The notes under the pieces were generated by a model that ran no database searches, was not told the origin of the DNA, and saw only the letters and a program-made list of their open reading frames with translations. The position numbers were made by a program, and so were the translations under genes. This document shows, piece by piece, positions 8,907 to 58,847 of a stretch of DNA of 64,000 bases (positions are counted from its first letter, which is position 1; each line of letters opens with the position of its first letter). The stretch comes from Neocallimastix lanati (nom. inval.) (lineage: Eukaryota; Neocallimastigomycota; Neocallimastigomycetes; Neocallimastigales; Neocallimastigaceae), in assembly GCA_016946835.1 (NCBI GenBank), contig JACVTC010000144.1:159001-223000 (forward strand), read 5' to 3'.

Positions 8907-9584
8907 TGATACAAGATGAAAAGAAAAATAATGATACTTTAAAATTATTATTAAATTATATTAATTATATAAAGTTTGTAAAATATATATTATTATAAAA
9001 TTAAAATTAATTATATAAAAATGATGAATTATATTAATTATAAATCATATAAAATAATATTATTATAGTATAAAATTTAATTATTATAATATAAACTTTT
9101 ATATTAATGTTTATATAAAATATAACAATTATGATTTAATATAGAGATAATAATTATAAAAAAAAATATATAAAAAATATTATAAAAAAAAAAATGTTTT
9201 TTGTTAAAAAAAAAATTATTGATATATGTTAATTAGTAATAGTTGATTTAATATAAGAAAAATGTTTTAATTAGTTAAGATAGTAGTTTAGTTATTAGTT
9301 TTAATAAAATTAGTTGTTTAAGTAATTAATTGTAGAATATTATAATTAAATTATAATTATTAATAGTTAATTAATATGATAAAAATAAAATAAAATAAAA
9401 TAAAATAAAATAAAAATAAAATAAAATAAAAATAAAATATTACAAAACAAATATCCTAAAATAAAAATTTTAAATAATTAAATAAAATAATTAATATTAT
9501 TATTAGAATATATAATTTAATACAATTCCCCAGTGTAGCGCCCAAAACTATTGTAAATACGAATATTTAAAATATATCGTATCA
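8907..9584 (+). repeat. A1 3' LTR
   Basis: 678 bp, TGATAC...GTATCA. Its 3' 220 bases match the window-start LTR. The base run ACTT (9585-9588) lies between it and the next group 1 LTR (C1), which B1 has split. Confidence 0.93.
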
Positions 9585-9590
9585 ACTTTA

Positions 9591-10289
9591 TGTAATAACA
9601 CAAAATTAATACTTAACTTTTATTAAAATAACAATAATTGATAAAAAATATTTCGAGTTTATTAAGAAATTTTATTATATATTATTTTCTAAATAATAAC
9701 TCTTGATTTTTATTTTATAGAAAAAATCAAGGTTATTTATAATTTTTTTTGTTCATAATCTTAAAAGTTATTCTTTCAGGAAAAAGATTATGAGAAAAAA
9801 CCTGAAAGATAAAATAAATTAATTATTTATTATTTAATATAATTTAATATTATTTAATATTGGCAATTAACCAATATTTTATGAAATTATTTATTATGAT
9901 GTTTTAAGTTTATAATTATTAACTAATTTTATATTAATTTAATATTAATTATATTAATATTAAATGTTTTAATATAATTAATCACGTATTATTGTTAATG
10001 ATAAATCAAATGATTAATTATTTATATTAAATAGAAATTGGTTATTAATTAAAGATATTGTTTATATTTCATAATAATTAATTATTAATTAGTTAAAAAA
10101 TTAATTTTATCAATTAATAATTATTTTTATTTTATTATTTAATAACAATTATTAAAATTATAGTATATTAAATAATGTTAAGTGTTATTTTATTGAAAAA
10201 TTATTTAAATCTTAATTAATAATAAAAATAAATATAATATTCATATTATATTTGGTTAAGTGTGACTAATTAATTAGTCAACACTTACA
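9591..10289 (-). repeat. B1 3' LTR
   Basis: In sense orientation it starts TGTAAGTG at 10289. It supplies the TAA stop of the polyprotein. It holds the U3 pseudoknot (9753-9808). Confidence 0.95.
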
Positions 10290-13200
10290 TTGTCTCTCCT
10301 ACGTTTGATTCACTATTGTTTAGGTTTTTATTCCTTTCCGTATATGGTTCCAACTGAGAAATGTGAAATATTGGATGTAATTGTGAATTCTCGGGAAGCT
10401 TTAGCTTAAAATTATTTCTACCTTTATCTTCAATTATTTCAAAAGGTCCTAAGTATTGGACCGATAACTTCCTGGAAGGTTCGTTAGTGAAATAATATCT
10501 TCTAAGCCAGACTTTATCATTGATTGTTAATTTTGGACCTTGTTGTTTTTTGTTGTCTCCATATTTCTTGAAATCCTGTTTTGCCTTTATCAATTGTTTC
10601 TTTAAAGCATTGAAATGTTCGGTCCAATTTCTAACGAGCTCTGATGCATTATCTTTAAGAAGACTCGGAGGTGTATCAATTTGGAATGAGGGGTTGAAAC
10701 CGTAATTTGCAACAAAGGGTGTTTTACCTATTGATTTATGAATTGAATCGTTGTAAGTGATTTCACAAAAAGGAAGATAGAAAAACCAGTCATGCTGAGT
10801 TAAAGAACAATAGCAACGTAAATATTGCTCTATTACTGCGTTTGCTCTTTCCACCTGTCCGTTTGATTGTTGGTGATGTGCCGTTGCTAAATTTGGTTTT
10901 GCATTTATATAAGAACATAAGGCAGTCCAAAATTCAGCTGAAAATTGTGATCCGTGATCCGATACTATAACTTTAGGGAATCCGTGGTATTTGAATACGT
11001 TAAATAGTAGAAGTTTTGCCGTAAGTTCCGAAGAGGGTACATCAGAGGTAGCAACCAAATGAATCATTTTTGTGAGATGGTCTGAAACAACCATTATACA
11101 GGTACAATCTTGGGATCGTGGAAGTTGAACGATGAAATCTACACCTATTATTTCCCATGGTTTAGTTGGTACTGGAAGCGGAATAATTAAGCCATATGGT
11201 TTATGACGGCGTACTTTGCAAGATCCACATGTTTTACATGAAAGAACGTAATTGGAGATATCGTTCTTCATCAGCGGCCACCAATAATTCCTGCTAATTC
11301 TTTCAAGAGTTTTTTCAATTCCAAGGTGTCCTCCAAGTGGATCATCATGCATTTTTCGAAGTAAAGTAATTCTAAGATTAGAGGGAACAATAATTTTGTT
11401 ATTAAAGTGGAGAATGTTATTTTTTAATTGAAATAGTGAACTTTTAAAATTTTTTGTTTTATCTTTGAATTTGTTAAGTATATTGGAACAATAAGGGTCT
11501 TGAGATTGCATTTCTTGAAGTTTGACTAAGTTATCTTCCATAGAGAGGCAAAAATTATTTTCTTTTAATAAAATTTGAGATTCATTAATGTTTTTGGTGA
11601 GGTAATCTGGTCTTCGGGATAACGCATCTGGTTTCCCACCTTGAACCCCAGGCCTATAAGAAAGAACAAAATCAAATTTGGATAAGAAGAGACTCCATCG
11701 AATTTGTCGGGGGCTCAATTTTTGAGGTTTTTTGAAAAACAGAAGATTCCTATGGTCCGTAAAAACTTTAATAGGAAATTTTGCTCCTTCAAGGTGATGT
11801 CTCCATACATCAAAGGCAGTAATTATCGCCAATAATTCCTTGTCATAGATAGCGTAATTCGTTTCAGGACTTGTCAGTGAACGGGAATAAAAGGCAATAG
11901 GATGGATTAAGTTGTCGATCGATGAGTTTTGAGATAATACACATCCGAGGGCAAATTCGCTTGCGTCAGTTTCCAAAAAGAATTCTTTATCTTGGTCTGG
12001 AAAAATAAGGATATCAGTTGAATTAAATGATTTCTTTAAACTATCAAAAGCATTCTGAGCATCCTTATCCCATAGAAAAGTATTATTCTTAGATAAAAGT
12101 TTTCTTAAAGGATCCATAATTTTTGCGTAATCTTTGATAAAACGTCTATAAAAATTTGTAAACCCAAGGAAACTTTGCAGTTCAGTAAGGTTTTTTGGAA
12201 CTGGCCATTCCATAATGCATTTTATCTTGTCTTTATCCATTAGTAACCCATTAGCGGACACAACGAAGCCGAGAAAGGTGGTTTGTTTAACATGGAACTC
12301 ACATTTCTCAATCTTGCAGTATAATCCATTATTTAATAACTTACTCAATACTACTTTAACATGATTAATATGTTGATTTTCATCTGAAGAATAAATGATA
12401 ATGTCATCTAAATATATTTGAACGAATTTATTCAATTCTTCTGATAACGTGTCTTGAATGAACCTTTGGAAAACTGAAGGGGCGTTTCTTAATCCAAATG
12501 GCATTACTCTATATTGAAAATGTCCTAGTGGTGTCCTAAAAGCTGTTAAGTATTCACTATCTTTACTGACTCGCACGAGATTGTAAGCAGATTTGAGGTC
12601 TAATCTAGAAAATATTTGTGCCCCTTTAAAAACTTCGATAAGGTCATTAATTCTTGGAATTGGGAAACTGTTTCTTATTGTAATCGAATTGAGTCTACGG
12701 TAGTCAACACATAGACGCAACGATCCATCTTTTTTCTTCACAAACATTACCGGAGCACCTGCAGGAGAATTTGATTTAACAATGAACCCTTTGGTCAGAT
12801 TTTCATGAATATATTTTTCTAATTCTTCCTTTTCCTTTCTAGTAAGTGAATAGATAGGTCCGAAATACAATTGTCCCCCAGGGATGATATTTATTGTGAT
12901 ATCGTAGGGTCTATGTGGCGGAAGGGTATCCGCATTTTTAGTTTCAAATACGTCCAGTAAGTTGCTATAATATCTTAAGATAATCTCTTTGCTTTTACTG
13001 TTATTTAGTTTTGACTTCAACTCCTTAGACATCATAATATAACATATTTCATCTTCAAAAAGGTCTTTCAGATCAGGTTTGGCAGTGTCTTCTGACATTG
13101 GGTCTTCAGTTACAATTGCGGCTGTGACGTTCTTTGTGGATTGGATCTTGGTGCCTTTACAAGATGGGCAATGATCCAAACAATTTCCTTCTAAAAAGAA

Positions 13201-14298
13201 AATGTGGTTATTCGAAAAGTTAATATATGGCTTATGGATGGAAAGCCAATCACGTCCCAAAATAGCGGATATTCCAGTAAGTTGAAGGTTGGCAACACTA
13301 AATTGGAATCTTTCTTTGTGATCAAATATGAAGAGATCTAATTGGCCAGTTGTATGAGTTATTTTCATAGTTTTGTTGTTTGGCAATCTAATTTCAATAG
13401 GGGAAGGTAGTTCAAAAGTTCTCAACTTCTGGGAGGAAACAAATTGCTTGCACATTAAACTTCTACTTGAACCTGAGTCGATTAATAGTCTAAGAGGAAT
13501 TTTTTTATTTTTTCCTTGAATGTAAAAGGTAGAAACCATTTTTTGATCCGATTTACTGTTGGTGTAGCTAGTAGAAAGCGTAACTTCTTCTTTTCTTTTA
13601 TAGTTATTATTTCTATTTCTTTTAATATCTTGATGTTTTCCGACAATATTAATTCTTCTTTTATTAGTTTTTTCATTTATTCCGTTATTTAGAATATTAT
13701 TTCTGAAGTAGCAATATTTATCAATCTTTATAATAAGGTTTGTTGCCTCGAATAGCTTTGTAGGTAAATCCTTTTTGTCATATTCTTCCCTGACTTCCTC
13801 AATTAGTCCCCTTCTCAATAAGTCTATCAAGACAGAATCTGGCCATTTGATACGAGTTGCCAAATGTCGGAATTGTATTGTATATTCAGCTGCATTGCCT
13901 AATTTTCTTTGTTTTAAATTTAGCAGCCTTTCAATTAAAGAGTATCTTTGTTCTTTGGAATCTCCAAAATTTTCAATAAGAAGTCTCTTGAATTCTTCAT
14001 AAGACAAATCATCCAAAATATCATCAGATTTAAGGGATAGTCCCCATTTCTTGGCAAGCCCTTTAAGGTTAATTGTGACATAAGATATCTTTGAAATATC
14101 ATTGGTAAAGGAATTAGGATGATCTATTATAAATTTGTCACATTGACAGAGTAGTTCGTTAAGATTTAAAGATTCATTTCCCTTTGCATGGAGGTTCTCA
14201 GCAAGGATACCGTTAGGAGCAAAAAAAGTAGGGATAAATTCAGTAATTGTAGATATAAGTTTTGTTTCGTTGGCCGGAGTAGTGTTATTTTGGTCCAT
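10285..14298 (-). CDS. gag-pol: B1 Gag-Pol polyprotein, single ORF (1337 aa)
   Basis: One ORF carries capsid, protease, RT, RNase H and integrase. ATG at 14298 (MDQNNTTPANETK). Gag region ~1-230 ends basic (KRRINIVGK...KRNRNNNYKRK) with no CCHC knuckle, matching F1. Protease LLIDSGSSRSL near residue 272; RT VMPFGLRNAPSVF and YLDD near 629; RNase H ETDASEFALG near 779; integrase HHCC ~976-1028; D (GVDFIVQLP ~1054), D (SDHGSQF ~1112), E (GQVERANAVIEQ ~1150); GPF module (YLGPFEIIED) near the C terminus; ends IFHISQLEPYTERNKN..., no chromodomain. All catalytic residues are present. The stop TAA (10285-10287) lies in the first bases of the 3' LTR: GGAGAGACA-TG-TAA, so the LTR tip terminates translation. 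Closest relative in the window is F1. Confidence 0.95.
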   Translation of the reverse strand: MDQNNTTPANETKLISTITEFIPTFFAPNGILAENLHAKGNESLNLNELLCQCDKFIIDHPNSFTNDISKISYVTINLKGLAKKWGLSLKSDDILDDLSYEEFKRLLIENFGDSKEQRYSLIERLLNLKQRKLGNAAEYTIQFRHLATRIKWPDSVLIDLLRRGLIEEVREEYDKKDLPTKLFEATNLIIKIDKYCYFRNNILNNGINEKTNKRRINIVGKHQDIKRNRNNNYKRKEEVTLSTSYTNSKSDQKMVSTFYIQGKNKKIPLRLLIDSGSSRSLMCKQFVSSQKLRTFELPSPIEIRLPNNKTMKITHTTGQLDLFIFDHKERFQFSVANLQLTGISAILGRDWLSIHKPYINFSNNHIFFLEGNCLDHCPSCKGTKIQSTKNVTAAIVTEDPMSEDTAKPDLKDLFEDEICYIMMSKELKSKLNNSKSKEIILRYYSNLLDVFETKNADTLPPHRPYDITINIIPGGQLYFGPIYSLTRKEKEELEKYIHENLTKGFIVKSNSPAGAPVMFVKKKDGSLRLCVDYRRLNSITIRNSFPIPRINDLIEVFKGAQIFSRLDLKSAYNLVRVSKDSEYLTAFRTPLGHFQYRVMPFGLRNAPSVFQRFIQDTLSEELNKFVQIYLDDIIIYSSDENQHINHVKVVLSKLLNNGLYCKIEKCEFHVKQTTFLGFVVSANGLLMDKDKIKCIMEWPVPKNLTELQSFLGFTNFYRRFIKDYAKIMDPLRKLLSKNNTFLWDKDAQNAFDSLKKSFNSTDILIFPDQDKEFFLETDASEFALGCVLSQNSSIDNLIHPIAFYSRSLTSPETNYAIYDKELLAIITAFDVWRHHLEGAKFPIKVFTDHRNLLFFKKPQKLSPRQIRWSLFLSKFDFVLSYRPGVQGGKPDALSRRPDYLTKNINESQILLKENNFCLSMEDNLVKLQEMQSQDPYCSNILNKFKDKTKNFKSSLFQLKNNILHFNNKIIVPSNLRITLLRKMHDDPLGGHLGIEKTLERISRNYWWPLMKNDISNYVLSCKTCGSCKVRRHKPYGLIIPLPVPTKPWEIIGVDFIVQLPRSQDCTCIMVVSDHLTKMIHLVATSDVPSSELTAKLLLFNVFKYHGFPKVIVSDHGSQFSAEFWTALCSYINAKPNLATAHHQQSNGQVERANAVIEQYLRCYCSLTQHDWFFYLPFCEITYNDSIHKSIGKTPFVANYGFNPSFQIDTPPSLLKDNASELVRNWTEHFNALKKQLIKAKQDFKKYGDNKKQQGPKLTINDKVWLRRYYFTNEPSRKLSVQYLGPFEIIEDKGRNNFKLKLPENSQLHPIFHISQLEPYTERNKNLNNSESNVGETM

Positions 14299-14361
14299 TT
14301 GATAAAGTAATAATGATATAATAAAGATAATAGTTTATTAATAAAATATTATTATTTTTAA

Positions 14362-14399
<38 letters not shown>

Positions 14400-14436
14400 T
14401 ATATACCAAATATTAAAAAAAATCAAGAGTTATTAT
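14299..14436 (-). other. B1 leader with self-priming primer-binding site
   Basis: Only 138 bases separate LTR and ATG, including a T run on the plus strand (~14363-14396). The 19 bases next to the LTR (plus 14418-14436) are exactly complementary to 14539-14557 inside the LTR, 20-40 bases downstream (sense) of a TATAAATA box (14580-14587). This is the arrangement of Tf1-type self-priming, where the mRNA 5' end folds back as primer. No TGG-type tRNA site is present at the LTR end. Confidence 0.8.
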
Positions 14437-15135
14437 TGTAATAACACAAAATTAATACTTAACTTTTATTAAAATAACAATAATTGATAAAAAATATTTC
14501 GAGTTTATTAAGAAATTTTATTATATATTATTTTCTAAATAATAACTCTTGATTTTTATTTTATAGAAAAAATCAAGGTTATTTATAATTTTTTTTGTTC
14601 ATAATCTTAAAAGTTATTCTTTCAGGAAAAAGATTATGAGAAAAAACCTGAAAGATAAAATAAATTAATTATTTATTATTTAATATAATTTAATATTATT
14701 TAATATTGGCAATTAACCAATATTTTATGAAATTATTTATTATGATGTTTTAAGTTTATAATTATTAACTAATTTTATATTAATTTAATATTAATTATAT
14801 TAATATTAAATGTTTTAATATAATTAATCACGTATTATTGTTAATGATAAATCAAATGATTAATTATTTATATTAAATAGAAATTGGTTATTAATTAAAG
14901 ATATTGTTTATATTTCATAATAATTAATTATTAATTAGTTAAAAAATTAATTTTATCAATTAATAATTATTTTTATTTTATTATTTAATAACAATTATTA
15001 AAATTATAGTATATTAAATAATGTTAAGTGTTATTTTATTGAAAAATTATTTAAATCTTAATTAATAATAAAAATAAATATAATATTTATATTATATTTG
15101 GTTAAGTGTGACTAATTAATTAGTCAACACTTACA
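14437..15135 (-). repeat. B1 5' LTR (promoter LTR)
   Basis: 699 bp. Sense features: terminal hairpin at U3 start (plus 15103-15133), U3 pseudoknot as in 9753-9808, TATAAATA (plus 14580-14587), presumed transcript start near 14557. Confidence 0.93.
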
Positions 15136-15138: not shown

Positions 15139-15927
15139 TAATACAGAATGAACAAATAATACTAATTGTGCTAGAATAATATAAATTATTCTAACCTTAT
15201 AGATTATTCTATTCTATATAATTGGAACTTTCCAATATTCTTCAAATATTACTAAATAGAAATCTTAAGTTAATAAATCACTAATTAACTTATAATTCCT
15301 TTTTGAATTATCGATCCGATTCCATTATAATGTATTAAAAATCTTTAGCCAAGAATATTGTCCTTGCCCACTTAATATATTAATATTATATTTCTTTTGT
15401 ATTATGTTATATTGAAAATAATCAAATCTATTTAATTAGTTATTAAAATTTTCGTTATCAATTTAAATTTATTTTTAATTACTAAATTTAACTAAACCAC
15501 AATAAAATATTCTGTATAATCTCTTTATTTTTATTTTATATATATTAGTATTAAACTATTATTAAATAATTAATAATTCAATAATATATAACTACTATTT
15601 ATAACAATAATATTATTAACTAAAATAATAATTCAATTTCAATTTAAATGTTTTATTTATAAAAATAATTAGTAATTAGTTTATTAAAAAAATAGTTAGG
15701 CTTTACAAATTTTAATTTGATAAAAAAATATAAATACATGTAATTTTAGTGAAATAAAATATAATCAATAACTTTCTTTTTATTAAATAAATAATTATAT
15801 TATTATTTTTTTCTTTTATAAATTTAAATAAATAAATATTGATTTTAAAACAAATTATTTTTTTTATTGTAATTTTATTATTTGTGTTAATTATTATTAT
15901 ATTCCTAAAATTATATGAACCATACCA
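15139..15927 (+). repeat. C1 5' LTR
   Basis: Its first two bases (TA) belong to the CTTTA duplicated by B1. Ends GAACCATACCA. Differs from the 3' LTR by about one substitution and one indel in a T run. Confidence 0.93.
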
Positions 15928-15935
15928 TGAAAAAT

Positions 15936-15952
15936 TGGTGGAGATATCGGGG
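15936..15952 (+). other. C1 primer-binding site (tRNA type)
   Basis: TGGTGGAGATATCGGGG begins eight bases after the LTR end and shares TGGTGGAGA and CGGG with the A1 site. Confidence 0.7.
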
Positions 15953-16124
15953 AATATAATAATAAATTAATACATTGGGGATAAAATTATAATATTAATA
16001 AATAATTTTTCTAATAAAACAAAAAATTTTTTTTTTAAAAAACAATTTTTATATTTTTAACTAATTATTATTAATTGTTAAAAATATTAATTATTATTAA
16101 ATTAAACTAATATTCGTGCATAGA

Positions 16125-16177
16125 TTTCCGGGTTAAGTTTATCCTACATAGTAATTGGGCTAGTAGGCTCTGGACTG
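16125..16177 (+). other. C1 conserved leader block
   Basis: TTTCCGGGTTAAGTTTATC (16125-16143) followed by GGCTCTGGACTG (16166-16177) is conserved in the leader of the otherwise different F1 (31873-31925). Its continuation after D1 (22987-23035) is also shared. Possibly an RNA packaging or translation element; function unknown. Confidence 0.6.
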
Positions 16178-16199
16178 CTATTTTTTATATTGAAAATAG

Positions 16200-16972
16200 T
16201 GTAAAGATATTATTAATATCTTTACAAATTTTAATTAAATTTAATCATAAATTTAAGTAAAATTGAAATAAATCTATTAAAAATCACGTGTATAAAATTA
16301 TTGCAAATAATTTTAAACAAAACTTCGACTTCTTCCCAATCATATTAATAAATTAAAAATTTCTCTTGTGAAACTAGTAATTGAAAATCATTTCTTTTTA
16401 TGTAATTTAATTTAAATAATAAGAGTTAAGGTTTTTTACAAGATAAATTAACAACATGAAACTATGCAATTAGTCATGTTGAAACTTGCGGCATTTTATG
16501 CTAAAATCATATTAAATAATTATGACAACTTTTATATTAATTTTAAATAGAAAATATAATAAGAATTTATTAATAATATTTAAATAATAAATAAATAATA
16601 AATGAGCTCGATTGAAATTGTTTATATTTATTTTAGTTATTAATTATAATTCTCTTTATTTAGTAATAGTTAATTATTTATTATTAGTTTAGGTTAGTAT
16701 TGTTTTTAAATAAATAGTTAGATAATATAATTCAATAGGAATTATATATTCTAAATGTAATAAGATAAAAATATAAATAGTTAACCAAATTTCATGTATT
16801 TTAATCGATGTAATTGTTATTAACGATTTATTGTTAATAACACTAATAAGTAATATAGATTATTTTAAAATCTAAATATAATAAAACTTATTTGTTTATA
16901 AAACATTTTTGTGTTATTTAGTGTTATTATAATTTTTGACTTATAATCTATTTTTTAAATCAAAACTTTATA
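16200..16972 (+). repeat. D1 5' LTR
   Basis: Opens with a perfect 27-nt palindrome (16200-16226). A further 8-bp hairpin CAACATGA/TCATGTTG lies at 16452-16481. TATAAATA at 16772-16779; the self-primer donor GTAATTGTTAT at 16810-16820. Confidence 0.94.
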
Positions 16973-16983
16973 ATAACAATTAC
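16973..16983 (+). other. D1 self-priming primer-binding site
   Basis: ATAACAATTAC sits directly after the 5' LTR and is the exact complement of GTAATTGTTAT (16810-16820), about 30 bases downstream of the TATA box. Eleven nt is also the length I recall for the Tf1 self-primer. The same 11-mer is conserved in diverged LTR D2 (62625-62635). Confidence 0.75.
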
Positions 16984-17404
16984 CTTTTTCTCTCAATAAA
17001 ATACGTTATAAGTCAAGATTATAACACGTGATACGTTAACAGTGGCTTGTGTGTGGCTTGATTCAAAATATTTTTTTACCAGTTTTAGATTATTGCTACC
17101 AGTTTCAGAATATTGCCACCAGCTCTATAATATTGCTACCGAAATTACAATTACACGTCTTAGAACAAGATTCGAAAAACCATAAACCTTTAATATTTTA
17201 ATTTATAACGTTACGTTTACTCGACAGCACCGCTTCAAAGGATAGAGCTAGATCGACTAGATGAAAAAACGTTATAGTTTGAAATATTTATTTGTTTGAT
17301 ATTTTTGTTAAAGAAATTGCAAAAATTTAAGTCAATTTAAAATAATCAAATTGGAGGGATTTAACAACCTAATAAGAAGATTCGAAGACCTTAACCTGCA
17401 AGAA
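16984..17404 (+). other. D1 leader with 20-nt tandem repeat
   Basis: Three tandem 20-nt units (17077-17096, 17097-17116, 17117-17136; consensus YACCAGYTYYAKAWTATTGC) and a partial fourth. Before them GTGGCTTGTGTGTGGCTTGA (17042-17061) resembles the GTGGCACACGCGTGGCATGA block of C1. No gene. Confidence 0.65.
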
Positions 17405-20400
17405 ATGAATCAAGAGAATCATCAAGTTCTGTCCCGTAACAATCAAAAGATTGTTAACGAACCACCGCTATTTTCTGGAATCAAGAAGGACTTTGATGGC
17501 TTCCTTACAAGAGCTGAAATAGCTATGGAAGCCAATCCACAAGGTTTCAATAACGACCATACAAAGGTCAGATTTATAATTTCTTATCTTGTCGGTGATC
17601 CCTTGATATGGGCCTCAAACTTGCGAAGAAATAATGATCCCCTGCTCAATGTTTATGAAGATTTTATTCAAGAATTAAGAAATCAATTTGGAGAGCAGGA
17701 CATGAGCACAGTTGTCGCAAACGGTAAATTATGCAGCATCCGACAACATAAATTTGGTCATGTTAGTGAGTATATAAATGAATTTAATAAAATCAGCAGA
17801 CATTCAGATTTTAACGATTCTGCTAAGATTTATATGTTTGTAAAAGGACTTCACTACAAGATGAGGGAGCACCTTGCAGTGGTAAATCCAAATCCCAACA
17901 ACTTAAGAAGACTTTTCACTGATGTCCTTAGTATCGAAAGCTTAACTAAGAGACATGAAATAAATGAATTTTTCTATCATAATTATTACCATCGTAAGGA
18001 AATAAATAATAATAATCATGCGTCTACTAGTGACCCAATGGAAATAGATTTATACAGAATTAAGAGAGGACAAACGAATACAAGTTACTTCCCTTCTAAC
18101 CAGAAATTATATCAAGAAAACTCGAATTCAAGAGATGAAGAAAGAAGGAAAGGATTGTGCTATTATTGTAAAAAACCAGGTCATCGCTATTTTAACTGTC
18201 CAAATAAGAAGAAACCTGCCGGAGTCAAGATTATCAGTAAACAAGAAAACACCGCTACCACACCCTCAAGTAGTTTAAGAAGAATTAGAAGAATCAACAG
18301 CCAAGAAGATATTGTCAAAGTTAGAAAAATCGTGGAAGAACAAAACTCACTTTTGACAAAGAAAAGTAATATCATTGATTTCTATATTAAAACAAACGAT
18401 ACAGAAGAAGTAAAAGCAAGAGTTCTGATCGATTCTGGTTCTGATCTTAATTTTATCCATCCTGAATTCGCTAAAGCCTTTGGAATTAAAACAAAAGAAA
18501 TCGAAGAACCTTTCCGTGTTACTGGTCTTGGATATGGTGTTTCATCAGTAAAAAAGGAAACTGAGAAATGCGTTCTTCGTTTAAGGAACCACTTGGAAAC
18601 GATTCAACTCTATGTTCTCAGGATTCCTGATGTTGATATTATCTTGGGTTTACCATGGATCAATAAGCACTCCCCCTACAACTACCATGACGCAAAGAAG
18701 ATTTCTTTCGGATCCGGTTTCTGTGCAAGACATTGTAACAATGGTAAAAGAAAAAGGAAAAACAAGAACAAGAAAAGGAACAAAGGAAAAGAACCTGCTA
18801 CCAACCTAGAAGAAAACAAAGTTATTATTGAAGAATCAAGAAAAAGAAAACCTCTCTTTGACTCTGATTCCGACTCTGACTCAGAAGAAGAAATTTCTAT
18901 TCGTGGCCGCCGAACTCGTATTAGAACTTGCTCTGAATTTAATAATTATGATAGTGATAGTGATATTAATGATACTTTTATGTTAGATAATTTTAGTGAT
19001 AGCATTAGTGATAGTGATAACTTTAGCGATAGTGATGATATTATTGTTATGAATTGTGATAGTAAAATTAGTACTAATAGTTTAAGGATTTTAAAGAAAA
19101 TTTGTGAATCTAGTAAATGTAAGAAATTAAATGTAATTGAAAAATGTAATGATGAAGATAATAATTTAAATAAAGATGGTGAAAAGGTCGAAGTACCTGA
19201 AATCTATTTGATGTTTAAAGAAGTGTTTAATGAAAATAATTGTAATGTGTTACCTCCGCATCGTAATTATGATTGTGAAATTAAATTAAAAGATAATTGT
19301 AGTCTATTTTATGGTCCGTTGTACCCTTTAACTGAAACGGAGAGAGAAGAATTAAAGAAATATTTAGAAGAGAATTTAAAAAAGGGTTTTATTAGGAAAT
19401 CTTCTTCTCCTGCTGGTGCACCTATTTTATTTGTTAGAAAAAAGGATGGTACTTATAGACTAGTTATTGATTATAGAAAATTGAACGAAATGACCATCCG
19501 TAACTCTTATCCACTTCCTTTAATTAGTGAATTGTTGGATAGAGTTAAAGGTGCTAAATATTTTACTAAGTTAGATTTAAAATCTGCTTATAACTTAGTA
19601 AGAATTAAAGAAGGTGACGAGTACAAAACTGCCTTTCGTACAAGATACGGGCACTTTGAATATCTCGTTATGCCTTTTGGGCTTAAGAATGCCCCTGCTA
19701 CATTCCAACATTTTATAAATGATGTTCTCAGTGATTACTTAGATGATTTTGTAATCTCTTACATTGATGACATTTTAATTTATTCTAATACTTTAGAAGA
19801 ACATCATGTACATGTTAAGAAAGTTTTAAGAAAATTGTTAGAGAATCATTTAGTTGTTAAATTAGAAAAGTGTGAATTTGATGTAACTGAAACTACCTTT
19901 CTTGGTTATGTTTTATCAAGAGATGGAATTAAAATGGATAAAGAAAAAGTTAAAGCAATTTTAGATTGGCCTGTTCCAACAAACGTTAAAGAAATTCAAT
20001 CGTTTATTGGACTTTGTAATTATTACAGAATTTTTATTAAAGACTTTGCGAAAATTGCAAATCCTCTCTACAAATTAACTAGAAAAAATGTTCCTTTTAA
20101 TTGGAGTTCTGAACAACAAAAAGCGTTTGATACTTTAAAAGAATTATTTACTACTGCTCCTATTTTGAAACATCCTGATAGCAACAAACAATTCATTGTT
20201 GAAACTGATGCTAGTAATTTTGCTGTTGGTGCAATTCTTTCTCAGGAATTTGATGGGCATTTGCATCCAATTGCTTTTATTTCTACTAGCTTAACTAAAT
20301 CCCAAAGAAATTACCCTATCTATGACAAAGAACTTCTTGCTATTAAAGTTGCATTGGAAGGATGGAGACATTACTTAGAAGGAGCTCGCCATCAGTTTAT

Positions 20401-22171: not shown

Positions 22172-22208
22172 AGTTAATCTCGCAGGAGCTCGACTTAAGG
22201 GGCGAGAT
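22172..22208 (+). other. D1 polypurine tract inside a hairpin
   Basis: AATCTCGC (22176-22183) pairs perfectly with GCGAGATT (22202-22209) and encloses the purine-rich AAGGGGCGAGA, the likely plus-strand primer. The last paired T is the first base of the LTR. Confidence 0.65.
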
Positions 22209-22981: not shown

Positions 22982-23222
22982 AATAGTAACCGTGGCACAC
23001 GCGTGGCATGACACCTTTCAAGAGGTAAGCTGCACGTCAGACAGTGTGTACTATCAGATTGCACGATTATTATAATTTAATAAATGATTAATAATAATAA
23101 ATAATTAATAATTTTATTAGTTAAAAGATTTATTTTTTTTAATTTTTTTTTTATTTTTACTTTTTATAACAATTTATACATTACGAGGTTTAGCATTCTA
23201 TAGATACAATAAATTTTATTTA

Positions 23223-44169: not shown

Positions 44170-44664
44170 TGAAAAATTGGTGGAGATATCGGGGAATATA
44201 ATAATAAATTAATACATTAGGGATAAAATTATAATATTAATAAATAATTTTTCTAATAAAACAAAAAAAACAATTTTTATATTTTTAACTAATTATTATT
44301 AATTGTTAAAAATATTAATTAATATTAAATTAAACTAATATTCGTGCATAGATTTCCGGGTTAAGTTTATCCTATATAGTAATTGGGCTAGTAGGCTCTA
44401 GACTGCTATTTTTTATATTGAAAACAGTAACCGTGGCACACGCGTGGCATGACACCTTTCAAGAGGTAAGCTGCACGTCAGACAGTGTGTACTATCAGAT
44501 TGCACGATTATTATAATTTAATAAGTGATTAATAATAATAAATAATTAATAATTTTATTAGTTAAAAGATTTATTTTTTTTTTTTTAATTTTTTATTTTT
44601 ACTTTTTATAACAATCTATACATTTCGAGGTTTAGCATTCTATAAATACAATAAATTTTATTTT

Positions 44665-45573: not shown

Positions 45574-45574
45574 A

Positions 45575-49569: not shown

Positions 49570-49592
49570 CTTGAGTCTTAGCGGGGGCATCT

Positions 49593-50377
49593 TAATACAG
49601 AATGAACAAATAATACTAATTGTGCTAGAATAATATAAATTATTCTAACCTTATAGATTATTCTATTCTATATAATTGGAACTTTCCAATATTCTTCAAA
49701 TATTACTAAATAGAAATCTTAAGTTAATAAATCACTAATTAACCTATAATTCCTTTTTGAATTATCGATCCGATTCCATTATAATGTATTAAAAATCTTT
49801 AGCCAAGAATATTGTCCTTGCCCACTTAATATATTAATATTATATTTCTTTTGTATTATGTTATATTGAAAATAATCAAATCTATTTAATTACTTATTAA
49901 AATTTTCGTTATCAATTTAAATTTATTTTTAATTACTAAATTTAACTAAACCACAATAAAATATTCTGTATAATCTCTTTATTTTTATTTTATATATATT
50001 AGTATTAAACTATTATTAAATAATTAATAATTCAATAATATATAACTACTATTTATAACAATAATATTATTAATTAAAATAATAATTCAATTTCAATTTA
50101 AATGTTTTATTTATAAAAATAATTAGTAATTAGTTTATTAAAAAAATAGTTAGGCTTTACAAATTTTAATTTGATAAAAAAATATAAATACATGTAATTT
50201 TTTGTGAAATAAAATATAATCAATAACTTACTTTTATTAAATAAATAATTATATTATTATTTTTCTTTTATAAATTTAAATAAATAAACATTGATTTTAA
50301 AACAAAATTATTTTTATTGTAATTTTATTATTTGTGTTAATTATTATTATATTCCTAAAACTATATGAACCATACCA
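49593..50377 (+). repeat. C2 3' LTR
   Basis: 785 bp after the tract GCGGGGGCATCT; followed by GTTG and LTR E2. Confidence 0.92.
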
Positions 50378-50381: not shown

Positions 50382-51392
50382 TGGTAAAGAATGAATTAAT
50401 AACCATTATTTTATTATTAATAATTCTTTACTAAATTGTACTTTCCTATATTCTTGATAACCTAAATAATAAAATTTAATTTATTTTGATATAAATTAAT
50501 TTTAACTTGTAAATAATGTAAATAAATTTTAATTAATTACTTTATTGTTATATTATTAAATATATGTATATATTAAAATACAATTGTAAATATTAAAATT
50601 ATACTTTTAAGATACTAAATTATTAAAACTATTAATTAAATATTATTATAAAAATTATTATAAAATTATTAAAATTATTAATTAAATATTATTATAAAAA
50701 TTATTATAAACTATTAATATTATTAAATTATTAAAATTATTAAATATTATTATAAAAATTTATTTATTATAACTATTAAATATTATTATAAAATTATTAA
50801 GATTATTAATTAAATTTATTATTAAAAATTATTATTAAAAATTATTACTTATTATAAAAATTATTATTTAAATATTATCAAATTTATTAATTAAATATAT
50901 TATAAAAATTTTATTTTATTTTTGAAAATAATTACAAGTATTATTTAAAATAATTAAAGATTATTAAATTTATTATATTAATCTTTAAAAACAATTTATT
51001 TAACTTAAAAATATCAAAGAAAATAGTAAAAACTATTTTCTATATATTTATTTTATAATTATTTTTAATTAAATTATATTTGAATATTATATTATTATAT
51101 TTATAAAAATTAAAACAAAAATGAATTATTGATATAAATTTAATTCAATAATTCTATAAAATTACTTAAATTATAAACAAATAATTATACTTTAAATTCA
51201 TAAAAAAATATAAATATTGTAACTATTTCTTAAAAATTAAATATGTGTACCTCAAAAATAAAATTTTATATTAATAAATAATAAATACTTTTTAATAAAA
51301 AGAATTTTTTTTTTGTTAAAATCAAAGCAGGGTAATACCCGTCCCCCCCCTGCTTGATTTTAAATCCATAAGAATCAACCCCGAGTCTACCA
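50382..51392 (+). mobile_element. E2: solo LTR, second copy of E1
   Basis: 1011 bp, TGGTAAAG...CTACCA, perfect duplication GTTG (50378-50381, 51393-51396). The 3' hairpin with the AAAATCAAAGCAGGG arm is kept (C run 8 instead of 7). Confidence 0.9.
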
Positions 51393-51396: not shown

Positions 51397-51862
51397 TGAT
51401 ACGGGATGAATAAATAAATATAAAAATTAATAAATTTAGAAAAATAATAAAATAAAATTTAATTAAAGTTAAAATAAAAATTATATAGTTTAAAATAATA
51501 ATAAACAATAAAAAAAAAAATTAAAAATAAATAAATTAAAATAAGAATTATGAAGAAAAAAAATATTTTAGAGATAGAGAAAATAAATATAATTAAAAGG
51601 TCTTAGAGAGAGGCCTTAATTGAGATTTTTAGTTAGTAATAATTAGTAAAATAAAATAATAAAAGTAATGTTAAAAATGTAATTAATGTAAAATTTAAAT
51701 AATTATAAATAAAGTATTAAATAAATAATAATAAAATATAAGTTTTATTTAATATAATTATTGTGTTAAAATTATTAATTGTTTTATTAGAATATATTAA
51801 TTTTCCTTAAATAAAATATTGCAAGTCCCATAAAAGTATACGATTATAAAAATATCGTATCA
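51397..51862 (+). mobile_element. A2: solo LTR of A-like type (TGATACGGG...GTATCA)
   Basis: 466 bp, flanked by GTTG (51393-51396, 51863-51866). Contains TTAGAATATATTAATTTTCC and ATATCGTATCA as in A1. Confidence 0.85.
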
Positions 51863-51866: not shown

Positions 51867-52722
51867 TGTAAGAATCTATAATTATTTGCTAACAAATAAT
51901 TATATTTTCTTAGTTAAGTTATTATAACTATAACTTTATTTAATTACATATAATATTTATTAAATTTATTTAATTTAATTTTAAATATTCATTAATTTAA
52001 CAAAATTTATTTAATTAATTTTAAATAATATATTTACAATATGTTAAATTCTCTACTGTAACTAATGTATTTTGTATTGTATTTTATTCTGTATTTTATA
52101 ATGTATTCTGAATTTTATTAACAATTTAATTTTATATTTTTAATATAAGGATAAATTATATGATCGAAATATCTTTTATTATTTTATTCTTTTATTTTCG
52201 ATCATTAGATTGGAAAATCGGTTAATTAAGATTTTTTCCAATTACTTTTTAGAAGTAATCGGTTTTACTTAATTAATGCGATGATCGATATGGATAGAAT
52301 ATCGATTGAAAACTTATCTAGGTTTTTCTATCTAATCTTTTCCTAGATAAGAGATTTGTTAAGATTAGAAAACCCTTTCTTATTTAACCTTATTTTCATA
52401 AAAAAAATATAAATAAGGCTCTTGAGTTCTCTTTGAGAAATCAAGAGTTATTATAAAAAACATAGTTATAATAGTAGCAATTTTATATTTTCAACTTTAA
52501 TAAATTAATAAAAATATTTTATTCAAAAACATATTTTTAAAATCAATTTATACAAACAATTCTTCTCTTACTTTTTGTGTTATTATTATAATTAATTTTA
52601 TAATAAACTCTACTCTAAAGGTAAAAAAATTTATTTTATTTTATTTTCTCAACTTAATGAATTAGTCGTTAAGTTGTAGTTAATAATTCTATTTTGAGTT
52701 AGTTCTTAATAGAATTATTACA
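51867..52722 (+). mobile_element. F3: solo LTR, close relative of F1
   Basis: 856 bp, TGTAAG...TTACA, duplication AGTTG (51862-51866, 52723-52727) whose last TG is the start of I2. Start hairpin 51877-51888/51893-51904; pseudoknot 52313-52369; a TATA-like AAATATAAATAAGG downstream. Confidence 0.9.
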
Positions 52723-52725: not shown

Positions 52726-53262
52726 TGATACGGTACCACACTAAAAACATTGTTAGGAATAGTTTTAGAAATTAGTTAAAGTAATAAATTAAAAATTAAT
52801 AATGATTGGTAGATAATTAAATAAGACTAAATAGTTAGATACATATTTTGATAATTCATTAATAATAAAACGAGGAGTTCTTTTTTATAATATAGGAAAT
52901 ATATAATAAAGATACTTCAAAATAACAGGTTTACTAGTAGAAAATATAATAGTTTATAGAGTAATAAATATTAATTATTAAGTGTATAATTAGATAGTTA
53001 GTGAGAAAGATAATAATAAATATATAACTTGTATTTTTATATTTTTGTAAACATTGAGAATAATGTAATAAAAATAAATAAAGAAATAAGAATAAATAAA
53101 TAAAGACAAATCTTTACATTTAAATTATATATTTATATTTATACATTATGTGTTATTATTATATTTATTAGAATATATTATTTTGTTAATAATTCCCTTC
53201 TGACAACGTCCAAACAAATAAAATTATTTAGATACATCTTTAAATATAAAAGATACGTATCA
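52726..53262 (+). mobile_element. I2: solo LTR (TGATACGG...GTATCA)
   Basis: 537 bp, diverged I-type LTR (AGAATATATTATTTTGTTAATAATTCCC block). Left flank CAGT (first bases shared with A2 end), right flank TAGT. Confidence 0.8.
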
Positions 53263-53270: not shown

Positions 53271-53949
53271 TGTAATAATCTATTTATAATATACTAACTA
53301 TAACTAGATTATTAATATTTTAAGATATAAAAATTTATACTTAACTTTATATAGAGTTTATTATAAACACTAAATATTGATATAAACAAAAAGACTTTAT
53401 TTCTTTTAATTTATTATATAGCATTATATAATAATAACTCTAATTTCTTTAATCAAAGAAATTTGAGTTCTTTTATACTTGTTTATTAATAATTATTTTA
53501 ATAGATGAAATTATTAAATAGATGTAATTATTAAATAAATAAAATAGATAAGATAAAGTTAACAAATCAAATAAAGGTATCTAATCTTAACAAATTGATA
53601 TTCAGGAAAAGATTAGTAGAAAAACCTGAATAACTTCGATTAATATTCTAATATATTAATCATCGTATTAATTAATAAAAACCCAATCATAATAATATTG
53701 GGGAAAAAATTAATTAACCGATTACTAAAATCTTATAAATTATCAACTAATTGAAATAATAAAATATAAATAATATTTTTAAGTAATTAATACATTACAA
53801 CAAATTTGTTTACATTATTTTTCAATATATTAATTTGGATAAATTAATATATTTTTTACATGTTAATAAATATTGAAATATAAATGAAATATAAATTAAT
53901 TAAATAAGAAGATAGATTATTTTATAAGAAATAAATCTATATTCTTACA
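53271..53949 (-). mobile_element. F4: solo LTR of self-priming family, minus strand
   Basis: 679 bp, TGTAA...TTACA, perfect duplication TTTTG (53266-53270, 53950-53954) whose TG is the start of G2. Pseudoknot stems on the plus strand: 53600-53606/53625-53631 and 53581-53588/53609-53616. Confidence 0.88.
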
Positions 53950-53952: not shown

Positions 53953-54971
53953 TGATAAAGAATGCCCAAATAATGTTCTTTTGGTTATTCATCTTAAATG
54001 ATTTATTTAACCCTTAAACAAATTATTTGATTCTTTATTCTTTTGGAACTTTCTATATTCTAATAAATTAATCTATATTCCTAATTAGTACAAATTAAAT
54101 TATACTAATTAAAAAAGTATATTTAATATTAATTCCTTATCTATGCTACCTTTATTATTCTTATCTATATTTTATTATTATTAAAATCCTTATCAATATT
54201 ATATAGTTTATTTTATCAATTTTCTTTATAGTTTATCAAAATCTTATCAATATTTCTTTTATTAATATTAAACTTATCAATATTAAATATTTCTTTGGAA
54301 AATTCCAAATTAAAAATTGTATTAATGACTACTAATGAAAAATTAAACATAAAAGAAAATAGTTATATTATTATTATATGTTTTATTATAAATATTATAT
54401 TATAAATTTGATGAAATGATTATAAATTTTATATTAACAATTTAAATAATATTATTTTTCTAAACTTAGTAAAATTAAACTTTAGGATTAAATAAATATT
54501 ACTAAACCACAGAATTAACTTCTGTAAAATAAAAAAATTTGTCTTTTAAAATATATAATTAAGTAGATTAGTAATAAATAATTAGTAATAGATTAATATA
54601 TAAGTATTATTTATTATAAGTTAAATAATAATTATATTAATAATAAAAAAAATAATATAAAATATTTAATAATTAATTTTTATTATACAAAGAAATGGCT
54701 TTACCATTTCTATTATTTTAAAAAAAAAATATAAATAACAGTAAAAAAAAAATTGTATTTTTTTATATGTTGTAATTTTAACATTGTAATTTTTAAATAA
54801 AAAAAATTAATAAAAGGATTATAAAAAATAAAATTTTAAAAGGTTATCTTGTTTATTTATTTTTTTTTTTTTTTTTTTTGTTTATATTAATCTTTTATTT
54901 TTATTTTTATTATTGTTTTAATTTTATTTATAATTTTTGAATAATTTTTATAAAAACCCCGAACCAAACCA
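53953..54971 (+). mobile_element. G2: solo LTR (TGATAAAG...AAACCA)
   Basis: 1019 bp, duplication GTTT (53265-53268, 54972-54975). Related to G1 and C LTRs (GGAACTTTCTATATTC). No gene inside. Confidence 0.82.
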
Positions 54972-54974: not shown

Positions 54975-55545
54975 TGATAAAGAATGAAAATTTAAAATTA
55001 AAAATAATTATAAAACGGAATTTAAAAATAATAAATTATTAAATTATAATAAAGTAATTAATTTTTAGATTATAAACATTTAAATTATAAAAATATTAAA
55101 TATTTAAATAATACACAATTAATAATAATTAGATTAAAATAATATAAAATAAACAATAATTGTTTATTTAATTGTTTATTATTAATAGTTAATTTATTAT
55201 TTATAAACAGAGTATAAATATAAAAATTAATATAAATAGAAATAAAAATTAATAGTTTTAAAAATTGTTCCTAATTAGCCATTATAAAAATTAGATAATA
55301 TTAATAATAATATTTTAAAATGATTATTTTTAATAAATTATAATTTTAATAAAACAAAATGTATTAATGAATCAATAACTAATTGATTTAATTATTTTAA
55401 GTTACTTAATAAAATATTAAAATAAAATTAAAATTACTTTTATCTTTTTTTTTTTATTAACTAGTATATCTAGTTATATTTGAACATGAGAATAAAGACT
55501 TTTAGTAAGAAATTACTAAATTAACTTTATTTTCAATCTGTTTCA
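54975..55545 (+). mobile_element. G3: solo LTR (TGATAAAG...GTTTCA)
   Basis: 571 bp, duplication AGTT (54971-54974, 55546-55549); the first base of G3 overlaps the last duplicated base of G2, so the two insertions are one base out of register. Confidence 0.75.
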
Positions 55546-55550: not shown

Positions 55551-56056
55551 TGATACGGTACCACCATAAATACCATAATTTAGTGAAACTTAGGTTAGGA
55601 ATTATTTGATAAAATCTTATTGGTTAATAATAATTTAATAATAATATATATAGTTAGTAAATAATAATAGTTTAAAGAATGGTTCTTTTATTAATATTAA
55701 TTTAGTTTATTAATAATTTAACCTATAAACATGTTTATTAGTATAGTTTAGTGTAGTTTTACATTTAGTTTACATTAATAACATAAGAGATTTTAGTAAT
55801 TGATTATATTTTATTGAATGATTTAATTATATTTTAACTAGTTTACAAATATTTATATTGATGATGTATTTTTATTGATGAATGATAATAAATAAATAAA
55901 ATAAATAAACTAAATATTAAAGTGTGAATATTATTATTGTGTGTATTATTCTATATAATATTAGAATATATTATTTTGTCAATTATTCCCTACTGTTATC
56001 GTCCAAATAAAATAAAATAAATATTGATATTGATGTTTAATAAAAATATCGTATCA
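55551..56056 (+). mobile_element. I3: solo LTR, near-twin of I1
   Basis: 506 bp, TGATACGG...GTATCA, duplication GTTG (55547-55550, 56057-56060). Confidence 0.9.
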
Positions 56057-56060: not shown

Positions 56061-56452
56061 TGGTACAAGACCAATTGAAAAATGAAAATTAAATACGACT
56101 AAATTTACATAAAAAATAGAAAATCAAATTAATCCATAAAAGGATAAATTAAATTGAAATTTATATAATTTTTAATTTTATACTTTATATAAGTATAAAA
56201 TTAAAAATTATTAAGACTCTCTCTTTTCCACATATAACTTTATTAAATGTAAAAAATTAGATTGAATGACAATTGATCTAAATTGAGATTTCAATTGATC
56301 AAAAATAAAAATTTAATAAAAATTAAATAAACAATTTATAAAGTAGAATTTAAGTATTTAGTTATAATTTACAACTTTAGTGTGAATTACTTATTATTGT
56401 GAATATTAATATAATTAGATTTAAATTTTAAAAATTCATTTACATTGTACCA
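56061..56452 (+). mobile_element. K1: short solo LTR (TGGTAC...GTACCA)
   Basis: 392 bp with perfect 6-bp inverted ends; flanks AGTTG on both sides (56056-56060, 56453-56457), of which the first A is shared with the end of I3. Confidence 0.8.
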
Positions 56453-56459: not shown

Positions 56460-58269
56460 TGTAATAATTTCTATAAATTATAGAAATTATTATTTATAAT
56501 TAATATTAATGTCACGAATACTAGAGGATTTGAAGTTAAAATTCACTATTAGATCAATTAAAATTTAAATTAGTTATTGACAAAAATTATTTTAATTCGA
56601 TTTTAATTATAAAAAATAAATATTAGAAACATTAAAGAATTAGAAACCAAAGGGTTTGGACTTATTTATTAAAGATAATTTAATTTAATTTAACCCTTAA
56701 GAATTTAATAAAAATAACATGAAGAAAAACAATGATAACTCAACAAATAATGGAAATATTATATCGTGATTTCCCGCTAAAAATATATTCATTAGAAAGC
56801 TACTGTCGAGAACTACAACATATATTAAAATCAACCTTATTGGACAACTAGATAACGAGATATTAGACTTTAAAGATATTTAAATATAAAAATATAAATT
56901 AATTATTTAATTAAGACCCTAAATTATTAATTAAGAAATTTATATTAGATAAATCTCTTAATTTGGAAATTATATTATTAATTTTTATTATTAATTAAAA
57001 ATACAGAATTAGTTATTAGTAATAGTTTTATAATATTTTAAATAAGTTTATAAGTTTTATATATTTATTATTATATATTTTTATTCAATTATTTTCTAAA
57101 AGATTCTAAGGAATTCTTTATTATTCTAAAGATTTCCGAAGGAGAATTTTTAATTAGTTTAATATTTTATTTTATTTTATTTTATATTTTATTATTAAAT
57201 TAGTTTTATTATTAAATTGTTTTATGAATAATTATATAGTTATTTTATTAAAAGATTCTTATCAATATTATTTTATTATTATATTTTATATAGTTTATAT
57301 ACATGTATGAATATATTAAGATTAAAATGTATTAATTAATTATATTGTTAATTATTATTTTAGTTTAGTATAAAAAGGATTTGAAATTCCATATTTTGAA
57401 TTCTTTGTAAGATTATTAACTTAGTAACCTTTAACTTTATAACTAATTATTAAATTCTAAAATATTAACATAAAGTTAATGAATTAATTATAACAATAAA
57501 TAATTTTTTATATTAATCTTAGTTAAAATTTATTATTAAAATATATATTAAATGAAAGTTCTAATAAAACATAAATCATAAATATTGAAATCTTAATTAT
57601 AAAACTCTGTGTGTGTTATTTATTATTTAAATTTAATTAAATTGTTATAATTAATAAAAACATCTTGACCTGACCAATTTAACCCAAACTAGGAAAGATA
57701 TAGCAAGAATCTTACCTAAACACTCAATTTTAATTTAACAATTAACTAAACTATTAATATTAAATAAAAATTAAAATAAAAATTAAAATAAAAATTAAAA
57801 TAAAAATAAGAATTTAATACTTATCTTTAAAATAGAGTTTATTATATGAAAATATAATAGACCTTGAATATGAAAAGAGAAAATAAAATATGTTTTTTAA
57901 AAGAACTTTATTAATCTATTTGATTATTAAATATTTTATTATTTTTTTTTTTTTGATAAATTTTAAAATAACTATTTTATATTAATTGAAATCTTACTGT
58001 CATTTATTGTTATTATATTTTTCTTAAAATAATAACTCTTGATTTTCTAAAGACGAAAATCAACAGCTATTTATATTTTTACAAAAATAAATGTATTTTT
58101 CTAATCTTAACAATGATTCTTTCCAGAAAAAGATTAGAAGAAAAAACTGGAAAGATTTTTGATTGTTTTTAAATGAAATAAATTTTTTTTAAAGAATAAT
58201 AATTATGAAATAATTATTAATTAATAAGAAATAGAAATAAATTATAAAAATTTATATCAATTTCTTACA
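56460..58269 (-). mobile_element. M1: solo LTR of B/F type, minus strand, enlarged by an inner insertion
   Basis: TGTAA...TTACA flanked by TTGTG (56455-56459, 58270-58274); the last TG is the start of L1. The right half is B-like on the minus strand: AATAACTCTTGATTTT near 58028, pseudoknot stems 58119-58126/58147-58154 and 58099-58108/58130-58139. At 1810 bp it is about 1.1-1.2 kb longer than its relatives. Confidence 0.82.
56510..57740. mobile_element. N1: candidate unit nested in M1
   Basis: 1231 bp beginning TGTCACGAAT and ending TTTAACA, with ATTAA on both sides (56505-56509, 57741-57745), placed where M1 departs from F4 and B1. Contains a TATA-like AGTATAAAAAGG near 57369. No ORF. The boundaries are weak because ATTAA is common in this DNA. 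Confidence 0.35.
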
Positions 58270-58272
58270 TTG

Positions 58273-58847
58273 TGATACAGATTGGAATTCTTAAGCATAA
58301 AATTATTAGAAAGCTTGAATAATATCTAACCTATTCAACAACAAATTAATAAATTAAAATTTGAAATTAAAATCATAATAAAAAAATTTATTTTAATTAA
58401 ATTCTAAAACTCGAAATTATACTTTAATTCTATTTTAATTTTTAGAATAATGAAATACTAATGTTAATTAATTTCTCTTTTTAATTAAAAGTAAATAGTT
58501 TGTAAACAATTATTAGGACGAGTGTTAGAATACTCGGTTATACGTTGTTTTTGAGCGTATTCAATAAGCTCATTTGCAACTCGTTTAGACGAATCTATTT
58601 AGTTAGAGACTGCGTAAAGGATTACTATAAAAGACGTAATCTAATCCCATATCTCTTCAACAGAGTGAGGTTGCAGTAAACGAGTTAACAACGGTTAATG
58701 CGCTTAGATCACCGAAGGTCTAAGATTAAATATATAGTTTTAAAATTTTCTTTTAAGGGTTTACTTGTTCCCTTTTTGTTATATTAACACCGCCGGTTTT
58801 TTAATGGTTGTGAGGCAAAGGTGTTAATTAAAATAAAATTGTATACA
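58273..58847 (+). repeat. L1 5' LTR (3' boundary uncertain)
   Basis: Starts TGATACAG. 58515-58730 is much richer in G and C than its surroundings and contains several short hairpins, e.g. CGAGT/ACTCG (58519-58523, 58532-58536) and CTTAGATC/GGTCTAAG (58703-58710, 58717-58724). TTCCC at ~58769 resembles the TTCCC block of A and I LTRs. The stretch to 59021 holds an A/T run and no gene. Confidence 0.5.

Follow-up and report, generated by a model that had tools for sequence, protein, structure and literature searches.

Retrotransposons of the Ty3/gypsy type that insert next to tRNA genes are already known. As outlined in PMC5911963 and PMC8632968, Ty3 from Saccharomyces cerevisiae, which is a Ty3/gypsy element, integrates 1–4 nt from the RNA polymerase III (Pol III) start site of tRNA genes. 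According to the outline in PMC8632968, Ty3 acts in a complex that includes TFIIIB and makes its cuts at positions -6 and -2 relative to the start site, which corresponds to a duplication of 5 bp. In the overviews given by PMC5911963 and PMC4600332, DGLT-A from Dictyostelium inserts 13–33 bp from the tRNA coding sequence, and Tj1 from Schizosaccharomyces japonicus is a tRNA-upstream Ty3/gypsy element that inserts 1–10 bp from the start site. Also, a table footnote in PMC5006619 states that in dictyostelids, later elements are found at the same tRNA gene, either outside or inside of earlier ones. Here we analyze a long array of retrotransposons with long terminal repeats (LTRs) in the gut fungus Neocallimastix lanati. 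The array covers a stretch of 64,000 nt on contig JACVTC010000144.1 (G000:C51:159001-223000), which we call the window. The window is AT-rich (the GC content per 2 kb ranges from 0.107 to 0.371), it consists mainly of Ty3/gypsy-type LTR retrotransposons, and it is part of an assembly with 762 contigs and 199 Mb.

The array is very likely a stack of Ty3/gypsy-type elements that integrated one after another at a single, fixed site upstream of a gene for tRNA-Ser (C51:150812-150893). Recognition of LTR edges is probably not the cause.

A tRNA gene at the end of the array

Using ARAGORN, we found that the tRNA-Ser gene is adjacent to a tRNA-Cys gene (C51:150725-150798). Both genes are on the minus strand, with their 5' sides toward the array. 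The nearest LTR, from an element that we call A0, starts 15 nt from the 5' end of tRNA-Ser. With the six pol proteins from the window as queries, pol-like bases comprise 17,121/31,725 on the 5' side of the tRNA genes and 0/31,725 on the 3' side.

The tRNA-Ser gene is 8.1 kb left of the window. From there, the array extends for ~87 kb, to an outer limit at ~C51:238,430 (window position 79,430) that we traced by eye. Past this limit there are further coding fragments and an apparent host gene (by eye only). The original prediction described a 49-kb array (9579..58280) of head-to-tail elements; the arrangement is largely as described, but the real array is longer.

We did not find any tRNA inside the window with ARAGORN (bacterial code) or with Rfam at gathering scores. 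If introns were allowed, ARAGORN made one prediction inside the window, a tRNA-Leu whose intron would be ~2 kb long; we took this to be spurious.

tRNA genes beside LTRs elsewhere in the genome

Other tRNA genes of this genome also have LTRs close by. Among loci with ARAGORN predictions, the gap between the LTR and the tRNA is 17 nt at L056, 14 nt at L057 and L058 (which have identical flanks), and 62 nt at L062. By eye, we found gaps of ~16 nt at L033, 15 nt at L074, 17 nt at L081, 18 nt at both L087 and L090, and 14 nt at L123. If the window's array is included, the 5' side of the tRNA faces the LTR in all ten neighbors, and the gap is 14–18 nt in nine of the ten.

To look at this from the tRNA side, we used 40 slices of upstream sequence, which cover 31 of the 63 listed tRNA genes (28/29 outside of contig C555 and 3/34 within it). 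Of these, ten come directly after another tRNA gene and three duplicate other slices, so that 27 distinct slices are left. An LTR-like end lies 11–22 nt away, mostly 13–18 nt, in 23 of the 27, as compared to 17% of random windows; the slices are almost all of one tRNA pair type, and the list of motifs was composed after viewing them. In both sets, LTRs are mostly at a fixed short distance and on the 5' side of the tRNA, as expected for targeting of Pol III start sites.

Across 14 sampled stretches of 10 kb (L015–L028), standard ARAGORN identified just one tRNA. This is a tRNA-Pro (L021/L022), and a K-like LTR start lies 22 nt upstream of it. Scanning L021/L022 with the window's LTRs gave low-complexity matches, and there was no pol match. 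More than half of the listed tRNA genes (34/63) are in one cluster (G000:C555:170732-399007), where all are on the + strand and some are ~540 bases apart. A clear LTR end is absent from the three upstream slices of this cluster that we examined.

Two groups of elements at nearly the same bases

The elements of the array fall into two groups. In group 1 (families or elements A, E, K, P0, and Q), LTRs start with TGATA, TGGTA, or TAATA and end with ATCA, ACCA, or AACA, and the target duplication is 4 nt. In group 2 (P1, P5, and several solo LTRs), they start with TGTAA and end with TTACA, and the target duplication is 5 nt. As expected for Ty3/gypsy elements, there are direct LTRs with TG...CA ends (except that family A has a TA start), short target duplications, and a pol order of reverse transcriptase (RT), RNase H, and integrase. 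Specifically, the proteins of A, P0, P1, P3, and P5 match the Pfam domains for RVT_1, RNase H, Integrase_H2C2, and rve in this order, with rve of P1 being under the curated cut-off. For Q, the open reading frame (ORF) that we tested has RT and RNase H alone.

The match between group 2 and Ty3 begins in RT and continues into integrase (residues 477-1334). The best stretch of similarity between group 1 and Ty3 is RT and RNase H, and the integrase region of group 1 (980-1234) matches foamy-virus integrase. Thus, two lineages of integrase that differ in cut spacing arrive at almost identical positions.

For seven of the group-2 insertions, the 5-nt duplications on the two sides match (CTTTA, TTATG, AGTTG, TTTTG, TTGTG, TTGTG, and TATTA). 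Each duplication is comprised of 3 nt of spacer and 2 nt from the start of the adjoining LTR, and the LTR that provides those last two letters is the one away from the tRNA in all seven cases. P5 does not have a matching duplication (its flanks are ATTTG and TTATG).

The spacers in front of these insertions indicate what sets the position. If any LTR edge could serve group-1 copies as their reference point, then we would expect 4-nt spacers before group-2 edges as well. If instead they insert at a fixed distance from the tRNA, then the next copy would arrive at the old place and leave the two borrowed letters behind, so spacers before group-2 edges should be longer. After omitting the group-2 insertion in L014, which has no recognizable inner LTR end, and an ambiguous contact after element R, toward the far end of the array, the spacers before group-2 edges are 6, 6, 7, 4, 8, 7, and 6 nt, which is above 4 nt in six of the seven measurable cases. 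Plain group-1 contacts are 4 nt in 10 of 12 cases, with one of 3 nt and one of 5 nt.

Order along the array

The original prediction listed 15 junctions with their spacers. All 15 exist within a few bases of the predicted positions, and most of the spacers are correct. These junctions had been described as a group-1 LTR end, a spacer, and then directly the next LTR start; six of the 15 (at 9585, 30003, 40634, 51863, 53263, and 56453) are split by group-2 elements. The proposal that spacers double as target duplications was also correct: ACTT flanks A1 on both sides (with P1 sitting in the left junction), and GTTG is on both sides of E2.

Moving outward from the tRNA, the first five spacers are all ACTT: these are between the tRNA and A0, A0 and a solo LTR (X), X and P0, P0 and A1 (where P1 is inserted), and A1 and E1. 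Spacers 6–13 are AATT, AATTA, GTTA, GTTA, GTTA, GTTG, GTTG, and GT(TG). These are followed by TAGTTT, GTT, AGTTG, GTTG, AGTTG, GTTG, and GTTG (or GT before TG), and GTAT is beside the outermost A copy. Neighboring spacers are more alike than expected by chance: for 19 spacers, which were typed by hand with some judgement, the summed differences were 13, as compared to a mean of 33.1 after shuffling, and none of 20,000 shuffles gave a sum as low.

Random nesting would not give such spacing, as had been argued beforehand. We simulated random nesting (24 insertions, 5,000 runs), and on average just 0.22 insertions were within 6 nt of an older edge, with a maximum of 3.

For the most part, the LTR pair of an element is more diverged the farther out the element lies, but there are two exceptions. 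In order of distance from the tRNA, the LTR pairs have 0/787 differences for A0, 0/677 for P0, 1/699 for P1, 1/788 for A1, 7/998 for P5, and 3/785 for A2, and the pair of R, at the far end, has 6 mismatches and one gap in the best-aligned 530 positions. The family A LTRs follow the same order: as compared to the LTR of A0 (~785 positions), there are 1–2 differences in A1, 9–10 in A2, and 16 in A3. Within family A, both A0 and A1 have an open pol frame, and the frame of A2 is broken; the pol frame is also open in P5, which is farther out than A1.

Several observations weigh against serial insertion beside the tRNA gene. P5 (7/998) shows more divergence between its LTRs than does A2 (3/785), which lies farther out, and the LTR pair of Q has no differences in 238 aligned bases, which is also out of order; P5 may be a recombinant, and the comparison for Q is short. 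There are no intermediates where the spacers change from ACTT or AATT to GTTA or GTTG, and some of the array could therefore belong to a different target. The spacer before the group-2 edge at 51863 is 4 nt rather than 6 nt, and the inner side of the group-2 insertion in L014 lacks a recognizable LTR end. Elsewhere in the genome, the tRNA of L062 is 62 nt from the LTR, a doubtful prediction of an intron-bearing tRNA in L011 has no adjoining LTR, and 4 of the 27 upstream slices (L142, L143, L146, and L149, of which two are from the cluster on C555) lack an LTR terminus. Given how the slices and their motifs were chosen, they are also not an independent test.

Alternative explanations for the array

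Our first reading of the array was that new copies target LTR edges or the palindromes that form between them. More precisely, the integrase could recognize LTR ends, or the palindrome of an LTR end, NNNN, and an LTR start, at any edge, and the tRNA would be incidental. Because LTR starts and ends are near-inverted copies of each other, every junction is palindromic, and contacts of this kind are common across the genome. The self-complementary pattern CGTATCA-N{0,10}-TGATACG occurs at 116 places, versus 2 for the backwards pattern. Among the 50 places listed, the spacing is 4 nt in 39, 3 nt in 6, 6 nt in 3, 5 nt in 1, and 2 nt in 1. A second pattern, TCTTACANNNTGATAC, had 112 and 124 hits versus 3 and 1, but this is weak evidence as about half of the listed hits are to one other repeat, TCTTACAACGTGATAC. 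That repeat is frequent and is identical on many contigs.

We also examined the edges of individual families. For family A, we listed 44 near full-length LTRs (the scoring covered 40 of the 923 candidates from a first look). These gave 72 outer edges, including other copies from the C51 region, or 60 after dropping those with identical 40-nt flanks. An LTR-start motif, which we composed after the flanks had been inspected, lies at an offset of exactly 4 in 34 of the 60 edges, and each other offset from 0 to 40 has at most one. For K, the start motif is at offset 4 on 10 of 20 edges (from 10 loci of ~40 listed). For P1 and P5, the 40 edges include 11 hits at offset 3 and 14 hits at offsets 4–6 (10 loci per family, with ~40 listed for each). 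So, the genome-wide excess of contacts at LTR edges that the original prediction called for is present.

Nevertheless, we dropped edge targeting after we found tRNA genes in the flanks and after the tests of polarity and of spacers, and we now consider it improbable. If the distance were set from the end of the older element, then both sides of that element should be equivalent. Instead, the overlap of the duplication is with the outer side in 7/7 cases, and the spacers before group-2 edges exceed 4 nt in 6/7. Also, age mostly rises outward, LTRs lie 14–18 nt from tRNA genes at other loci, and the 3' side of the tRNA genes is free of pol. On these grounds, an LTR edge as the target is not supported. 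The original prediction that new copies integrate exactly at the edge of an older LTR was right that the positions are not random and that copies come to rest against older LTRs, but the edge itself does not seem to be what they recognize.

Assembly artefacts, or the copying of one ancestral block by recombination or segmental duplication, seem much less probable still. There is some duplication: 12 of the 72 A edges were dropped because they had identical flanks, and C354 and C38, each with three A LTRs in tandem, 4 nt apart and all with TTTT, appear to represent one duplicated locus. Also, A and E are adjacent twice in the window. However, those two contacts have different spacers (ACTT and GTTG), and the same pattern occurs with distinct flanks on many contigs and with many different 4-mers. 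Finally, the idea that elements are drawn to heterochromatin or to transposon-rich DNA and nest there at random would suit the density of elements in this region and the chromodomain of the nested element P3, but it is contradicted by the base-exact spacing, which our simulation of random nesting comes nowhere near, so we give it almost no weight.

Proposed mechanism and implications

We propose that the group-1 integrases make cuts that are 4 bp apart, at roughly 11 and 15 nt from the mature tRNA on its upstream side. An incoming element would enter the existing 4-bp duplication at the copy nearer to the tRNA, duplicate it again, and push the older elements outward. The group-2 integrases would cut 5 bp apart and ~2 nt farther out, so that their duplication would extend 2 bp into the LTR that was inserted before. 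As judged from the position alone, the anchor may be the initiation complex of Pol III (TFIIIB/TFIIIC), as it is for Ty3 in yeast. The changes in the spacer along the stack could reflect drift of the live target between insertions.

More speculatively, tRNA genes might act as one-sided recorders: each landing would re-create the target, and the stack would be an ordered log of retrotransposon activity that could be read and set against the logs of other loci. The LTR ends, which are near-inverted (TGATACG...CGTATCA, with similar starts in both groups), might have been kept because either orientation would rebuild a good upstream neighborhood for the Pol III complex, so that the tRNA gene stays active and ready for the next insertion.

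Should many tRNA genes show this order, then the relative ages of LTR families could be read from their position, without a molecular clock, and bursts could be matched between loci. The array is also a natural experiment on the precision with which two lineages of integrase gauge their distance from a Pol III gene, and on the way in which a tRNA gene keeps its function when the DNA upstream of it has been replaced repeatedly.

Elements within the window

We describe the elements in order from the tRNA side, using window coordinates; they are on the + strand unless otherwise mentioned. P0 (group 1; 1..9584) has its 5' LTR start 457 nt left of the window, its 3' LTR at 8907-9584, and ACTT on both sides. 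It has a single open frame of 2199 aa (2033-8632) with very long runs of asparagine. P1 (group 2; 9591..15135, - strand) has LTRs at 9591-10289 and 14437-15135 and a 1349-aa ORF with RT, RNase H, and integrase; its duplication (CTTTA) takes in the first 2 nt of A1. A1 (group 1; 15139..28940) has LTRs at 15139-15927 and 28153-28940 and a 1335-aa ORF. When we searched with the family A pol protein, we found a 99% identical protein (ENA source) and, lower down, a relative whose record carries the label Orpsp1_1, which we take to be an anaerobic gut fungus.

The original prediction held that all elements are edge to edge, with no unrelated DNA. This is the case for most of them, but P3 is nested within the leader of A1, and a truncated element (37391-40633) lies beside P5. 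P3 (16200..22982) is a chromodomain Ty3/gypsy element and splits A1. It is the only one of the six proteins tested with a Pfam chromodomain, it lies away from the tRNA position, and it does not obey the insertion rule of either group. The intact counterpart of its insertion site is at 44400-44440.

Next is E1 (28945..30002), a group-1 solo LTR that resembles 50382-51392 and has ACTT in front of it. P5 (group 2; 30009..37387), with its unequal flanks, is a possible recombinant. The adjoining 5'-truncated group-1 element (37391..40633) has the end of pol (37443-39581) and an LTR (39605-40633). A recombinational deletion between two group-2 copies would explain both the unequal flanks and the lack of a 5' part across 30003-40633.

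Farther out are a group-2 solo LTR (40641..41496, given without strand; duplication TTATG), a group-1 solo LTR (41500..42335), and K1 (42340..42845), a solo LTR of the short K family with GTTA on both sides. Pairs of K-family LTRs elsewhere (C762, C757, C610, C66, and C58) are ~2.5–2.7 kb apart, so K seems to be short and non-autonomous. The group-1 solo LTR at 42850..43380 begins with GGCTACAG rather than with TG. A2 (group 1; 43385..50377) has broken frames and LTRs at 43385-44169 and 49593-50377. It is followed by the solo LTR E2 (50382..51392), a group-1 solo LTR (51397..51862), a group-2 solo LTR (51867..52722, without strand; duplication AGTTG), a group-1 solo LTR with a K-like start, ATACGGTACC (52726..53262), and another group-2 solo LTR (53271..53949, without strand; duplication TTTTG).

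Then come group-1 solo LTRs at 53953..54971 and 54975..55545, the solo LTR K2 (55551..56056), and one more group-1 solo LTR (56061..56452). Beyond the window, an LTR of the 53953-54971 family is split by ~490 bases of other DNA (L014 4225-4718, or C51:237225-237718; by eye). The next insertion is bounded by group-2 LTRs (56460..58269, without strand; duplication TTGTG), and Q (58273..64000, continuing to ~65210) begins directly after this duplication. The ORFs of Q are at 58986-62554. Its LTRs (58273-58511 and 64457-64694) align over 238 bases only, and the 5' copy is apparently cut or chimeric.

Across unrelated families, and in both groups, the LTR starts are alike (TGATAAAGAA, TGGTAAAGAA, and TGTAAGAA), as if they were under common selection.

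Comparison with known systems

The bacterial insertion sequences IS30 and IS231A target the ends of resident elements. As in those systems, copies in the array are head to tail and a few nt apart. However, for IS30 and IS231A the resident end is the target, whereas here the evidence favors the tRNA gene.

We did not find a description of such stacks in gut fungi in the open-licence literature, which is weak evidence of absence. Like DGLT-A and Tj1, as these are outlined in the sources cited above, the elements of the array insert a short way upstream of tRNA genes. Unlike DGLT-A or Tj1 as described there, they form a long stack in which copies are in register to the base, share duplications, and are mostly ordered by age.

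The most similar system is Ty3. Like Ty3, these elements have a Ty3/gypsy pol and a fixed position close upstream of tRNA genes, and group 2 shares the 5-bp duplication. In contrast to Ty3, the array includes many families from two lineages, one of them with 4-bp duplications, on nearly the same bases, and they have piled up over ~87 kb; dependence on TFIIIB, which is part of the Ty3 complex, is here suggested by position. Overall, this is a known kind of targeting by Ty3/gypsy elements, and what is unusual is the depth of the stack, its single-base register, its order, and its use by two lineages.

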